DNA of 52,384 bases from Pseudomonadota bacterium (lineage in GTDB: Bacteria; Desulfobacterota; Desulfobacteria; Desulfobacterales; RPRI01): the NCBI GenBank assembly GCA_018901125.1, contig JAHIFE010000185.1, positions 1-52,384 on the forward strand, in the 5' to 3' direction. The notes under the pieces are model-generated. The model made no database searches and was not told the origin of the DNA. It worked only from the letters and a program-made list of their open reading frames with translations. Both the position numbers and the translations under genes were made by a program. Of this stretch, positions 11,567 through 50,723 are shown piece by piece (the stretch's first letter is position 1; each line of letters starts with the position of its first letter).

Positions 11567-12442
11567 ATGAATCCAAATGTTGCGGATATATTAATTGAGG
11601 CTTTGCCGTACATCAGGCGTTTTTACGGTATGACAATAGTAATAAAGTATGGCGGTCATGCAATGGTTGATGAGCAATTAAAGGAAGATTTTGCCCGCGA
11701 TATAGTACTGATGAAATTTGTAGGACTCAATCCTGTGGTGGTACACGGGGGAGGTCCTCAGATAAACCAGGTGCTTTCCCAGATGGGAATAAAATCAACT
11801 TTTGTGAGAGGTATGCGGCTTACCGATCAGCCTACAATGGATGTTGTTGAGATGGTTCTTGGCGGAAAAGTCAACAAGGCTATTGTTGCCCAGATTAATC
11901 AGCATGGCGGAAAAGCAGTGGGCTTAAGCGGAAAAGATGGAGGATTAGTATTAGCTAAAAAACTTCGCATAGTATTTAAGAAGGATGAAAATACACCACC
12001 TGAAATAATTGATCCGGGGCTTGTAGGCGAGGTAACAAACATCAACCCTGATATAATTACAACTCTAACTGACAAGGGTTTTATTCCGGTTATTGCTCCA
12101 GTCGGCGCCGGTAAATCAGGGGAGACTTTTAATATAAACGCTGATCTTGTAGCAGCAAGCATAGCAATGGCGCTTTCCGCAGGCCGCCTAATATTGCTTA
12201 CCGATGTGGATGGCGTACTCGATGCTTCAGGGGATCTGATATCGTCGATAGATTCTGTGACTGCCAAAAAGATGATGGATAATAAGAGTATTTCAGGAGG
12301 AATGATTCCAAAAATAGAATGTTCTCTGGAAGCACTGAAAAATGGAGTTGGAAAGGTTCACATTATAAACGGTAAAAAACGGCATTCTTTGCTGCTTGAG
12401 TTGTTTACGGATAAAGGGATAGGAACTGAAGTAAAAAAATGA
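11567..12442 (+). CDS. argB: Acetylglutamate kinase
   Basis: 291 residues. Phosphorylates N-acetylglutamate, the second step of arginine synthesis. [15 protein letters not shown] supplies the catalytic Lys and glycine loop, [14 protein letters not shown] the second Gly-rich loop, [16 protein letters not shown] the substrate Asn, and [11 protein letters not shown] with [11 protein letters not shown] the ATP-site residues. The N-terminal helix ([18 protein letters not shown]) is the extension seen in the hexameric, arginine-inhibited enzymes, so feedback inhibition is likely. It is first in an argB-argD-argF-argG-argH run. Confidence 0.97.
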
Positions 12443-47641: not shown

Positions 47642-49660
47642 ATGGATAAAATAATTGAATCAATATTGGAACTGATACCGTTTGGCTATCTATTTGAGCT
47701 TATCGGATTAAGCAAGGAGCTTAGTGCCGGATTGTCGGTATTGGTTGCTGCTATTTTACTTTATATTATAGGTATTTTTATTAAGAAGTTGCAAACTTAT
47801 ATCAAGAATAAGAATACTGCTGCCGATTTGAACCCATATTTTAGCTATTTAAATGTAAAAAAATCAACGGAGTTGTTTATACAAACACGAGGACAGAATC
47901 ATTCACCAACATCTGAAGAAGAACCACGCAAAAGCACAAGATTTATTGTGAAGGAAAAATTAATACCATGGTTCTTAAAATCGGCTTTCAATGAAAAGCA
48001 AGAAAGCGATAAATATTATCTCATACTTGCCGACTCAGGTATGGGAAAAACAACTTTTATGATTAACCTTTATATTCGTTATATCTCAAAATTTTGCCAA
48101 AAATATACTATTAAACTTATTCCGTTTGGAGATGAACGCATCATTGGCAAGCTAAAAGAATTAGGCAAAAATCAGGACCAGGCCAAAAATACAATTTTAC
48201 TACTGGATGCTTTTGACGAATACAAGGGCTTGCTTCCACCCGACGAACCGGACGGCCTTGATGATGATGAGCGATTCAGAAAACAAATAGATGAAATTGT
48301 AAAGCTTACCCGTGATTTTCGTGAAGTTGTAATTACAAGCCGCACACAATACTTTCCCGGACAGGAAAATGAACCTTATGAGCTTAAAATCCGGCGTTTC
48401 GATGACCAGGGTTTCCATACCCTTGCAAAGCTCTACCTTTCGCCTTTCGACAGCAACGAAATAAGAAAATATCTGAATAAAAAATATGGAGTTCTTAAAT
48501 TTTGGAACAACAAAAAGAAACAGCTTGCCAAAAGAATTGTTGAAGCTTCGCCGAAGCTGATGGTACGTCCTATGTTATTGGCTTATATAGATTATCTGGT
48601 AGACAGCAAAGAAAAATTTGAAACAACATATCAAATTTATGAAACACTGATAGAAAAATGGATAGAACGTGAAGCTAAAAAGCGAAAGAATGAAAGCACG
48701 ACACGCAATAAGTTCAAAAAGGACTTGTATGAATTTTCTATGCAAATATCTTTAACTATTTATAAAAATCAAAAATCTACAAAAGAATTAAGTATTGATA
48801 AACAAACGGCTACCGCATTATGTAATACAGAAAACTTAAACCTGAAAGATTACGAAGTTACAGGACAATCCTTACTTACCCGAGATGCCAACCACAATTG
48901 GAAATTTGCCCACAAATCTATTCTTGAATTTTTCCTTGCTAAACAATGTCTTGCAAATAGCGATTTTTTGGATGAATTTGAATTTTCCGGAATGGATATG
49001 GTAGAAACTTTTCATCAAGAAGTGATAGGAAAAGACTTTGTATTTGTTAAAGGTGGCATGCTAAATCTGAATGATAAGAAGGTTATAAACATACCTGGTT
49101 TTTATATTTGCAAATACCAGGTAACGCAAAAGCAATGGCAGGAAATAATGGGTAAGGATCCAAGCAATTTTAAAGGTGAAAACAATCCGGTAGAAAATGT
49201 AAGTTGGAACGATGTGCAGGGATATATAAAAAAAATAAATGCAAAAACGGGGAATTTTTTTCGCTTACCAAGCGAAGCGGAGTGGGAATATGCGGCAAGA
49301 GGCGGTAATCGGAGCAAGGGTTTTGAATTTGCCGGAAGCAATAACCTGGATGAAGTCGGGTGGTGTAAAGAGAATTCAAATAATTCAACACATCCGGTGG
49401 GACAAAAAATTCCTAACGAATTAGGCATATATGATATGAGTGGAAACGTATGGGAATGGTGTCAGGACAAATGGAGTGATGGTTACGATGGCATCCCGAA
49501 AGATGGAAGGACAAATGAAACAGGTAAAGGCTCGATTCGTTTTAATCGAGGCGGTTCGTGGGACTACGGCGCTGACGACTGTCGTGTTGCCGGTCGCATC
49601 AGCGACGATGCCGGCAGCAGCGGCGACGACATGGGCTTTCGTCTTGCCCTCAGTTTATAA
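47642..49660 (+). CDS. Membrane-anchored NACHT-type NTPase fused to FGE-sulfatase (C-type-lectin fold) domain with hypervariable C-terminus
   Basis: 672 residues. One N-terminal membrane helix (about 29-48), then a STAND/NACHT NTPase: Walker A ADSGMGKTTF (Lys136), Walker B ILLLDAFDEY (Asp189), VVITSRTQYFPGQ sensor. A helical region with FAHKSILEFFLAKQCL (about 425) ends it. Residues 462-672 are an FGE/SUMF1 domain: YICKYQVTQKQWQEIMG, PVENVSWNDVQGYIK, FRLPSEAEWEYAARGG, MSGNVWEWCQD, RGGSW, GFRLAL. The last part is a putative DGR variable repeat. No Shine-Dalgarno site is seen, unlike neighbours, and codons are AT-rich, suggesting transfer. Likely a ligand-sensing conflict protein (inference). 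Confidence 0.88.
   Translation: MDKIIESILELIPFGYLFELIGLSKELSAGLSVLVAAILLYIIGIFIKKLQTYIKNKNTAADLNPYFSYLNVKKSTELFIQTRGQNHSPTSEEEPRKSTRFIVKEKLIPWFLKSAFNEKQESDKYYLILADSGMGKTTFMINLYIRYISKFCQKYTIKLIPFGDERIIGKLKELGKNQDQAKNTILLLDAFDEYKGLLPPDEPDGLDDDERFRKQIDEIVKLTRDFREVVITSRTQYFPGQENEPYELKIRRFDDQGFHTLAKLYLSPFDSNEIRKYLNKKYGVLKFWNNKKKQLAKRIVEASPKLMVRPMLLAYIDYLVDSKEKFETTYQIYETLIEKWIEREAKKRKNESTTRNKFKKDLYEFSMQISLTIYKNQKSTKELSIDKQTATALCNTENLNLKDYEVTGQSLLTRDANHNWKFAHKSILEFFLAKQCLANSDFLDEFEFSGMDMVETFHQEVIGKDFVFVKGGMLNLNDKKVINIPGFYICKYQVTQKQWQEIMGKDPSNFKGENNPVENVSWNDVQGYIKKINAKTGNFFRLPSEAEWEYAARGGNRSKGFEFAGSNNLDEVGWCKENSNNSTHPVGQKIPNELGIYDMSGNVWEWCQDKWSDGYDGIPKDGRTNETGKGSIRFNRGGSWDYGADDCRVAGRISDDAGSSGDDMGFRLALSL
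49562..49650 (+). repeat. Putative DGR variable repeat (VR) at the 3' end of the NACHT-FGE gene
   Basis: Codons 641-663 (49562-49630) all end in a pyrimidine (17 C, 6 T) and the stretch is about 68% GC. Encoded residues are mostly Asp, Gly, Ala, Ser, Tyr and Ile, exactly those reached from AAC/AAT template codons by adenine replacement. It lies between the conserved RGGSW and GFRLAL segments, where DGR targets of this fold vary. No template repeat was seen in the window. Confidence 0.7.
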
Positions 49661-49693
49661 CGGTTCATTCATTACTTTTCGGGAGCCGAATAA

Positions 49694-49768
49694 TTTTTCC
49701 TGAATGAAGCTTTGCAGCGCAGGGCGAGCGATAGTCGCCCGAAGTAGCAAAGTGGAATACAGGAAAAA
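49694..49768 (+). other. Three-tier nested inverted repeat after the VR
   Basis: TTTTTCCTG (49694-49702) pairs with CAGGAAAAA (49760-49768), CTTTGC (49710-49715) with GCAAAG (49747-49752), and GGGCGA (49722-49727) with TCGCCC (49735-49740). The internal loops are symmetric (7+7 and 6+6 bases) and the apical loop is 7 bases. It could be a DGR cruciform-type element, a terminator or a mobile repeat. Confidence 0.75.
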
Positions 49769-49871
49769 TTAAAAACCCCGCTTTTGGCGGACAATATTTT
49801 TTTTAAACGAAATTTCAAGCGTGCTTGCACCTTGTACTTAATATTAATTCAAAAATAATTCAGGAGGTTTT

Positions 49872-50723
49872 ATGTTCAAAAATATCTTTAGGATTCTGAT
49901 TCTGGTCTTGTTTTTAGCTCCACTTCATACTGTCATGGGAGCCAGTTCTCCCAATGATTATGCCGGCAGCAAAGATCCGGCTATGTTCACCCGTATGCCG
50001 GGTTTCCATATAAGCAGCTACGAAGAACTCGACTTCAATAAATACGATTTTCAGGTTGGGCCAGGCAAGACACAAAAGGTTGAGGGAAGGTATTGTTTTA
50101 TCGATTACTATGCCAACGATGGTATCAAAATCCCCAGCGGACTGCAGGTTATCCGCAACTACGTCAATGCTGCCAAGGCTATCGGAGGAAAGTCGGTATA
50201 TGAATATGAAGATGGCGGAACCCAATATGCCACAATAAAGGTTGTTAAAAATAACGCTGAAGTCTGGGTCGCAGTAGAAGGAGCCAATAACGGCATGTAC
50301 CAGATACATATAATTGAAAAGCAGCTTATGAAACAGGAGGTGGTAGCAAGTGCTGAAAGCATGGCGGGAAATATAAATGATACCGGCAAGGTTGCTGTTT
50401 ACGGTATCTATTTCGACACAGGTAAAGCAGATATTAAGCCGGAGTCAGATCCGGCCCTGGCCGAGATTGTCAAAATGCTTAAGTCCGATTCAAAGCTTAA
50501 GCTGTTTGTGGTCGGTCATACTGACAATGTCGGTATGTTTGACAACAATATCAAACTATCAAAGGACCGGGCAGCAGCAGTAACAAAAGCTTTAGTGGGT
50601 AAATACGGTATAGCAGCTTCACGCCTTACCCCTTTTGGTGCCGGACCGACGGCTCCGATCGCCTCCAATAAAAGTGAAGAAGGACGTGCCAAGAACCGCA
50701 GGGTGGAGCTGGTGGCCCAATAA
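49872..50723 (+). CDS. OmpA-family outer-membrane/periplasmic protein
   Basis: 283 residues with a signal peptide (IFRILILVLFLAPLHTVMGA) and an AGGAGG ribosome site. Residues about 25-155 form an uncharacterised domain (MFTRMPGFHISSYEELDFNK, then YATIKVVKNNAEVWVAVEGA) that resembles the DUF4892-like part of other OmpA-type proteins. Residues 170-283 are an OmpA peptidoglycan-binding domain: VYGIYFDTGKADIKPESDPA, LFVVGHTDNVG, LSKDRAAAVTKAL, LTPFGAGPTAPIASNKSEEG and AKNRRVEL. It should link envelope layers by binding diaminopimelate of peptidoglycan. A long AT-rich gap separates it from the NACHT-FGE gene, so it is probably a separate unit. Confidence 0.9.
   Translation: MFKNIFRILILVLFLAPLHTVMGASSPNDYAGSKDPAMFTRMPGFHISSYEELDFNKYDFQVGPGKTQKVEGRYCFIDYYANDGIKIPSGLQVIRNYVNAAKAIGGKSVYEYEDGGTQYATIKVVKNNAEVWVAVEGANNGMYQIHIIEKQLMKQEVVASAESMAGNINDTGKVAVYGIYFDTGKADIKPESDPALAEIVKMLKSDSKLKLFVVGHTDNVGMFDNNIKLSKDRAAAVTKALVGKYGIAASRLTPFGAGPTAPIASNKSEEGRAKNRRVELVAQ

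Follow-up and report, generated by a model that had tools for sequence, protein, structure and literature searches.

A STAND-type NTPase gene of a Desulfobacterota genome with a C-terminal variable repeat: a probable target of a diversity-generating retroelement stranded from its Bacteroidota-type mutator

Background

Diversity-generating retroelements (DGRs) include targets in which STAND, NACHT or KAP NTPases are joined to a CLec/FGE domain. These are proposed to be antigen sensors, and the available part of the same report also describes degenerate loci and trans diversification for such DGRs (Dore et al. 2024, PMC10907252). The gene analysed here resembles the clade 5D STAND/NACHT-CLec targets described there (DGR 3 and DGR 6 of Thiohalocapsa PB-PSB1): it has a central STAND NTPase and carries its variable repeat (VR) in a C-terminal FGE/CLec domain. 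The likeness is one of target architecture, and degenerate and remote loci comparable to ours exist in that type too, as far as the available text goes (PMC10907252). In contrast to Thiohalocapsa PB-PSB1, our genome has no detected reverse transcriptase (RT), no accessory gene at the locus and no detected template repeat (TR), and its gene, in a different phylum, is of the Bacteroidota type.

A second precedent is provided by the partial DGRs of Nanoarchaeota, which consist only of target, VR and cis elements and which the available sections interpret as fossil or remotely diversified (Paul et al. 2015, PMC4372165). In our locus, too, an RT is lacking and the target, its VR and the target-site elements are present. 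Nanoarchaeota genomes carry other DGRs according to the same sections (PMC4372165), whereas none was found in our genome, and an intact orthologous cassette of donor type was identified. At the DNA level, a comparable target site is that of BPP-1, where efficient homing needs an inverted repeat 3' to the VR, which lies 4-34 bp away in phage DGRs, according to the part of the study available (Guo et al. 2011, PMC3240598). FGS domains and DGRs have moreover been tied to conflict systems (Kaur et al. 2020, PMC7159879).

Since both STAND-FGE targets of DGRs and partial DGRs reduced to the target have already been described, the architecture and the stranded state of our locus are both of known kinds. 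New here are the gene family, the intact orthologous cassette, the remote-target relative and the inferred move across phyla. Neither this gene nor the locus is mentioned in the titles and abstract beginnings of the open-licence PMC literature searched.

Domain organisation of the protein

The window is the whole stretch of DNA analysed (52,384 nucleotides, one contig of the genome called G000 below). The gene and its two recognisable domains are located as follows.

47642 to 49660, + strand: target gene, STAND-type NTPase with a C-terminal FGE / C-type-lectin-fold domain, 672 aa (profile searches; full-length orthologs L060 and L130/L142)
47993 to 48400, + strand: core of a P-loop NTPase of the STAND type, aa 118-253 (weakly assigned; nSTAND3 of Pfam stays under its cut-off at E 5.4e-5)
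49082 to 49648, + strand: FGE-sulfatase-like domain (C-type lectin fold), aa 481-669 (Pfam 2.7e-44; AF2 pLDDT 88; TvpA 2y3c)

The NTPase region reaches 23.4 bits against nSTAND3 (Pfam cut-off 27.2) and 14.4 bits against NACHT (cut-off 26.7; E 0.035). The NCBIfam profile EruA, a NACHT antiphage protein, matches at E 2.9e-4, far under its cut-off, and PADLOC gives no match for the protein. The sequence-only reading had labelled the protein NACHT. The P-loop NTPase resembles nSTAND3 (5.4e-5), NACHT itself attains only 0.035 and both profiles stay under their cut-offs, so that the domain is better described as a STAND-type P-loop NTPase that is NACHT-like at best. A hydrophobic segment at about aa 30-46, spotted by eye, suggests a putative membrane anchor.

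The full-length AF2 model was set aside as too poor (pLDDT 47) but the FGE domain was modelled with a pLDDT of 88. By profile, TvpA of Treponema denticola (2y3c, E 3.2e-62) ranks first among solved structures and PvdO second (1.9e-46), an order favoured by the DGR targets included in the profile. Fold comparison of the model also places TvpA first (3.8e-19), PvdO following narrowly (9.5e-19). True FGE enzymes rank below TvpA. Profile, model and fold match all locate the VR within the C-type-lectin fold. TvpA, like the FGE domain of our protein, is a DGR variable protein of the FGE type. It belongs to a complete DGR, unlike our gene, and is to our knowledge not an NTPase fusion, unlike our protein.

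Codon and GC composition of the variable repeat

49550 to 49653, + strand: variable repeat, GC-rich; its differences from the template of genome G576 cluster at adenines (21/33 template adenines vs 15/72 other sites, p 4e-5)

As the sequence-only reading had pointed out, 23 consecutive codons of about 68% GC end in C or T in an otherwise AT-rich gene. All 23 codons at 49562-49630, between RGGSW and M-GFRLAL, are NNY, with C as third base in 17 of them. GC content is 0.68 in this run and 0.67 over the 32 VR codons against 0.355 in the gene before. The same reading noted that nearly all the encoded residues can be reached from AAC or AAT. This holds but restates that the codons end in C or T and provides no independent evidence.

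The gene has an NNY background of 48.5% and its next-longest NNY run is of 8 codons. The probability of the run is about 6e-8 on raw NNY frequency and rises to about 4e-4 with the encoded residues kept constant, as D, Y and C have no codons other than NNY. The 52-kb window contains four other NNY runs of at least 20 codons (24, 21, 21 and 21; all six frames, regardless of coding). The run is thus odd but not decisive and, taken alone, proves nothing. Three FGE genes are found in G000 at E 0.001. The one on contig C103 shows no GC island (0.41 vs 0.40) and its longest NNY run is 3.

Orthologous genes with intact DGRs

An ortholog of the NTPase that also carries the FGE end (L130) lies on a 4802-bp Bacteroidota contig (G576:C488, L142). 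This contig groups the target, an HRDC accessory gene, an RT with the IGNLTSQ motif and an AAC/AAT-rich template. HRDC accessory proteins occur in DGRs. The L142 template differs from its own VR at 14/33 adenine sites and 1/72 others. Compared with the VR of our gene, it differs at 21/33 adenine sites and 15/72 others (p 4e-5). By codon position, the adenine-site differences fall at 13/18 first and 7/14 second positions, the non-adenine ones at 4/17 first, 2/21 second and 9/34 third positions; third positions therefore account for 9 of the 15 non-adenine differences. Codon 21 is Ala (GCC) both in the L142 template and in our VR, while it is Pro in most templates seen here. A template identical to our VR at non-adenine sites was found nowhere in the material searched. 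As no template of its own was found for the VR, we infer its adenine-directed writing from the template of the ortholog, 15 non-adenine differences included.

The similarity between the two loci extends beyond the coding sequence. The window matches L142 into non-coding DNA, with a 24-base string (CTCAGTTTATAACGGTTCATTCAT) identical in both. The local DNA alignment covers the VR, the stop codon and a palindrome (see below) and ends at about 49807.

49807, no strand assigned: final base of the window aligned locally to the intact cassette; its counterpart lies 33 bp before the L142 accessory gene

The alignment would place an accessory gene some 33 bp past 49807. The window instead carries an OmpA-family gene (Pfam) starting at 49872, and no accessory gene of Avd or HRDC type is found beside the target.

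A scan of species genomes for orthologs identified one full-length relative, L060 (62% in the best segment), in a Saprospiraceae genome assembled from metagenome data (G059). This genome has an intact DGR RT and template on a contig other than that of L060, which is therefore a remote target. The remote L060 VR differs from the G059 template at 18/27 adenine sites and 1/66 others (65/66 non-adenine sites matched), and the local G059 VR differs from the same template at 16/27 and 0/66. Because the orthologs are targets of intact DGRs, local (L142) or remote (L060), a DGR origin of our VR is well supported and, judged by such comparisons, very likely.

Anatomy of the 3' target site

49652 to 49657, + strand: AGTTTA, 3' boundary motif of the VR and candidate IMH boundary (templates have AGCTCA in the same place)
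49691 to 49771, + strand: imperfect palindrome, 81 bp, a possible counterpart of the DGR hairpin/cruciform (starts 33 bp past the boundary motif; putative function)

The VR retains the 3' boundary and the palindrome of the G576 target. The exchange of AGTTTA in the VR for AGCTCA in the TR is observed in four TR/VR pairs (L062, L084, L085 and L142). Of 37 VR rows outside G000 and its order, one of which (L067 at 8280) is not a C-terminus, 9 have AGTTTA no more than 40 nt from the VR end. All 9 belong to the 19 rows from Bacteroidota, with L062 and L073 sharing a genome. None of the 26 other FGE rows of G000 and its order has it.

The palindrome folds as DNA with a z of -3.94 (0/200 shuffles), and the 160-bp tail with a z of -4.47. 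Homologous palindromes are found downstream of L061, a Bacteroidales relative, and of L142. A multicopy origin was rejected, since even with 3 mismatches allowed the core has a single occurrence in G000, and a short hairpin directly after the stop codon was also discarded (z -0.99). Fold z values below -3 are obtained for our gene, for 3/26 FGE genes from G000 or from its order, among them L033 beside a DGR RT, and for 7/34 others. The demonstrated targets L060 and L102 have no significant palindrome (z 0.02 and 1.05). The long palindrome is consequently not specific to DGR targets: it is missing in these two and present after FGE genes whose DGR status is not established. Strong palindromes immediately follow two such genes, L024 (z -6.1) and L082 (z -4.5 and -6.7).

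As in the BPP-1 target site, within what the available part of PMC3240598 describes, the VR is followed by a mismatch-bearing candidate IMH boundary and then, in the form of the palindrome, by a possible counterpart of the inverted repeat. The gap, 4-34 bp in phage DGRs, here measures 33 bp when counted from the motif and 37 bp when counted from the last base shared with the template. In contrast, our palindrome is 81 bp long with interrupted arms, whereas the phage stem is a GC-rich one of 7-10 bp with a 4-nt loop (PMC3240598, same part).

Search for the mutator and present state of the variable repeat

The genome G000 is a draft of 4.45 Mb in 241 contigs, 98.4% complete. BLAST of the VR against it returned nothing above noise but the VR itself. 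A masked pattern of the first half of the VR (up to 3 mismatches) had the VR as its sole match, and a generic NNN-template pattern had no match in the genome. This generic pattern matches one of 10 genomes, that of the genus member G002, where it detects the template, and it also fits the G576 template. Templates from four other genomes (G002, G059, G061 and G062) were rejected as sources of the VR, with non-adenine mismatches of 21/64, 25/66, 16/64 and 15/65, respectively. For the RT, RVT_1 (Pfam) and a DGR RT profile each give a single match in G000, the same gene on contig C80. It was rejected as a DGR RT on account of its QGGVISP motif, which we take to be of the group II intron type. Missing core genes are not proof of absence since the genome is a 241-contig draft.

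The sequence-only reading had proposed a remote or orphan DGR target, and this is upheld by the intact cassette with an ortholog as local target and by the remote target L060. It had also proposed a hypervariable ligand-binding face, which is not supported for this organism: of the three outcomes that it had named as speaking against its proposal, two, no template and no DGR RT, were obtained with the draft genome.

Our main reading, to which we give a probability of roughly 0.77, is that the gene is a DGR target gained horizontally and stranded from a Bacteroidota-type mutator, with a VR that is probably frozen. A Bacteroidota-type DGR would have written the C-terminal face of this STAND NTPase-FGE/C-type-lectin sensor: an AAC/AAT-rich template would have been reverse-transcribed with random replacement of adenines, and the product would have homed into the VR, immediately 5' to the AGTTTA boundary and the palindrome. 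The target, with boundary motif, palindrome and a terminator-like element, would then have moved horizontally into a non-Bacteroidota host, leaving behind accessory gene, RT and template. The VR would now be frozen with one fixed binding specificity. In line with what has been proposed for defence sensors of the STAND-CLec kind, the protein may sense a ligand with its VR face and signal via the NTPase; it would then be a sensor of fixed specificity.

Alternatively, a DGR situated elsewhere in the organism (unassembled, unbinned or episomal) might still rewrite the VR in trans. The ortholog L060 is just such a target, with its DGR on another contig, the boundary motif, palindrome and VR frame of our gene are intact, and the available text of PMC10907252 proposes diversification in trans for DGRs 4 and 5 of Thiohalocapsa. 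The fragmentation of the assembly also leaves room for it. However, neither RT profile nor any of the three template searches revealed a DGR in G000, while the same generic pattern succeeded with G002 and fits G576. We consider an active remote target unlikely; within the limits of the draft assembly, the gene of this organism is likely to be stranded.

Host placement and origin of the gene

In the NTPase region the protein is 76% identical to the Saprospiraceae ortholog. In 59 genomes (G000, its genus and its order) the only other match to this region, among the matches listed, is at 35%. The host itself does not group with Bacteroidota: in a RecA tree of 13 rows, G000 and its genus fall outside the supported Bacteroidota clade. 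The 3' end of the window has no match in IMG/VR (exact pattern), plasmids or phages, and a search of the 393 genomes of the order of G060 returned G060 only. We infer a horizontal transfer of the target, either without the core or followed by a loss of the core.

A chimeric or mis-binned contig or contig end, the gene then coming from a Bacteroidota genome that has the DGR, would also account for the closest full-length relatives found being Bacteroidota, and about 2.7 kb separate the gene from the end of the contig. Tetranucleotide composition nevertheless fits G000: for positions 1-47 kb of the window, mean r is 0.53-0.59 against 8 sampled G000 stretches and 0.30-0.38 against 4 Bacteroidota stretches, and for the 2.6 kb past the gene, a short segment, it is 0.25 against 0.10. 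The profile of the gene itself favours neither origin (r 0.29 vs 0.31). Moreover, no Bacteroidota relative above 76% in the NTPase was found. An assembly or binning error is accordingly very improbable, and horizontal gain of a stranded target remains the preferred reading.

Conservation by codon position

Exact identities between our gene and L142, L060 and L061 were counted by codon position in the FGE body and in the VR with its tail. Against L142, they change from 121/172 to 22/38 at first (p 0.18), from 128/172 to 31/38 at second (p 0.41) and from 78/172 to 27/38 at third positions (p 0.007). Against L060, the respective values are 122/177 to 18/38 (p 0.015), 134/177 to 20/38 (p 0.009) and 75/177 to 20/38 (p 0.28), and against L061, 133/179 to 22/38 (p 0.05), 142/179 to 23/38 (p 0.02) and 81/179 to 25/38 (p 0.03). 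Third positions thus appear better kept in the VR than in the FGE body, and first and second positions mostly worse, a partly significant reversal of normal coding evolution. L142 is an exception: second-position identity rises in the VR and the fall at first positions is not significant.

FGE proteins in the order of G000, whose DGR status is not established, have a common frame RGGSW...CR.A.R...GFR and are variable between those positions. An ordinary FGE C-terminus shaped by normal evolution, with a GC-rich stretch due to recombination or codon preference, would agree with this shared frame, with a residue-conditioned probability of merely 4e-4 for the codon run and with the failure to find an own template in G000, but is hardly tenable given that orthologs are demonstrable DGR targets, that identity continues over the non-coding boundary and palindrome, that codon-position conservation is partly reversed in the VR and that the C103 FGE gene of the same genome has no island.

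Significance

The ligands of DGR-diversified STAND sensors have not yet been tested, according to the part of Dore et al. available (2024, PMC10907252). With its single fixed VR, a stranded target would, together with the intact G576 cassette, make the ligand question testable, by offering a defined receptor open to assays of its selected specificity and a matched complete system. Another suggestion from the locus is that what a mutator has produced can persist without it and travel further than it does. In genome scans, a VR would be recognisable by codon pattern, boundary motif and orthology even where template and RT are lacking.

More tentatively, and with rather less than even odds, DGR targets may cross phyla as mutator-free 'target cassettes' (sensor domain, VR, boundary motif and palindrome), of which a gene on contig C53 of G000 would be a second case. 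If so, recipients would obtain ready-made receptors of one specificity, rewritable should a compatible DGR arrive.

Related genes

The C53 gene is an NTPase-FGE fusion (FGE domain at 11752-12408) with a GC- and NNY-rich VR-like end (L012 2062-2154), for which no template was found. It has a GC island (0.67 vs 0.42) and an NNY run of 11. Its NTPase is related to QatA and PifA (QatA 7e-45, yet under cut-off) and is probably of KAP type. From these features the gene is a candidate second stranded DGR target. The G002 template was rejected as the source of this VR-like end: the adenine bias is clear (p 5e-6) but 18/64 non-adenine sites differ.

In the same genus, G002:C72 (L050 1161-2804) carries a shortened FGE target, a 136-aa C-terminal fragment of an RT and an NNN template directly behind. 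This DGR looks decayed, and DGR decay is thus seen in the genus. Elsewhere in the order, L033 1-2148 (G047:C348) groups an FGE gene with a VR-like end, a 158-aa ORF and a DGR RT (IGNLISQ); the long palindrome that follows the FGE gene has a z of -6.1.

L061 (905-3307) has a different N-terminus but shares the FGE end, the AGTTTA boundary and the palindrome with our gene. The DGR RT profile finds no match in its genome, and its differences from the L142 template are not biased towards adenines (p 0.28). The FGE module seems to have been swapped between N-termini. The VR-like end of L071 was rejected as a product of the template of its genome (15/65 non-adenine differences).

A search with the NTPase part in 396 genomes of the order of G059 gave matches in 12 genomes (13 rows). 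Among these, L129 duplicates L060, and the FGE end is present in L130. L138 is truncated, as are L140-L141, two distant relatives that break off inside an FGE-like region. The others (L131-L137 and L139) are NTPase relatives with C-termini other than FGE, several of them leucine-rich-repeat-like by eye, as if the sensor part were exchangeable.
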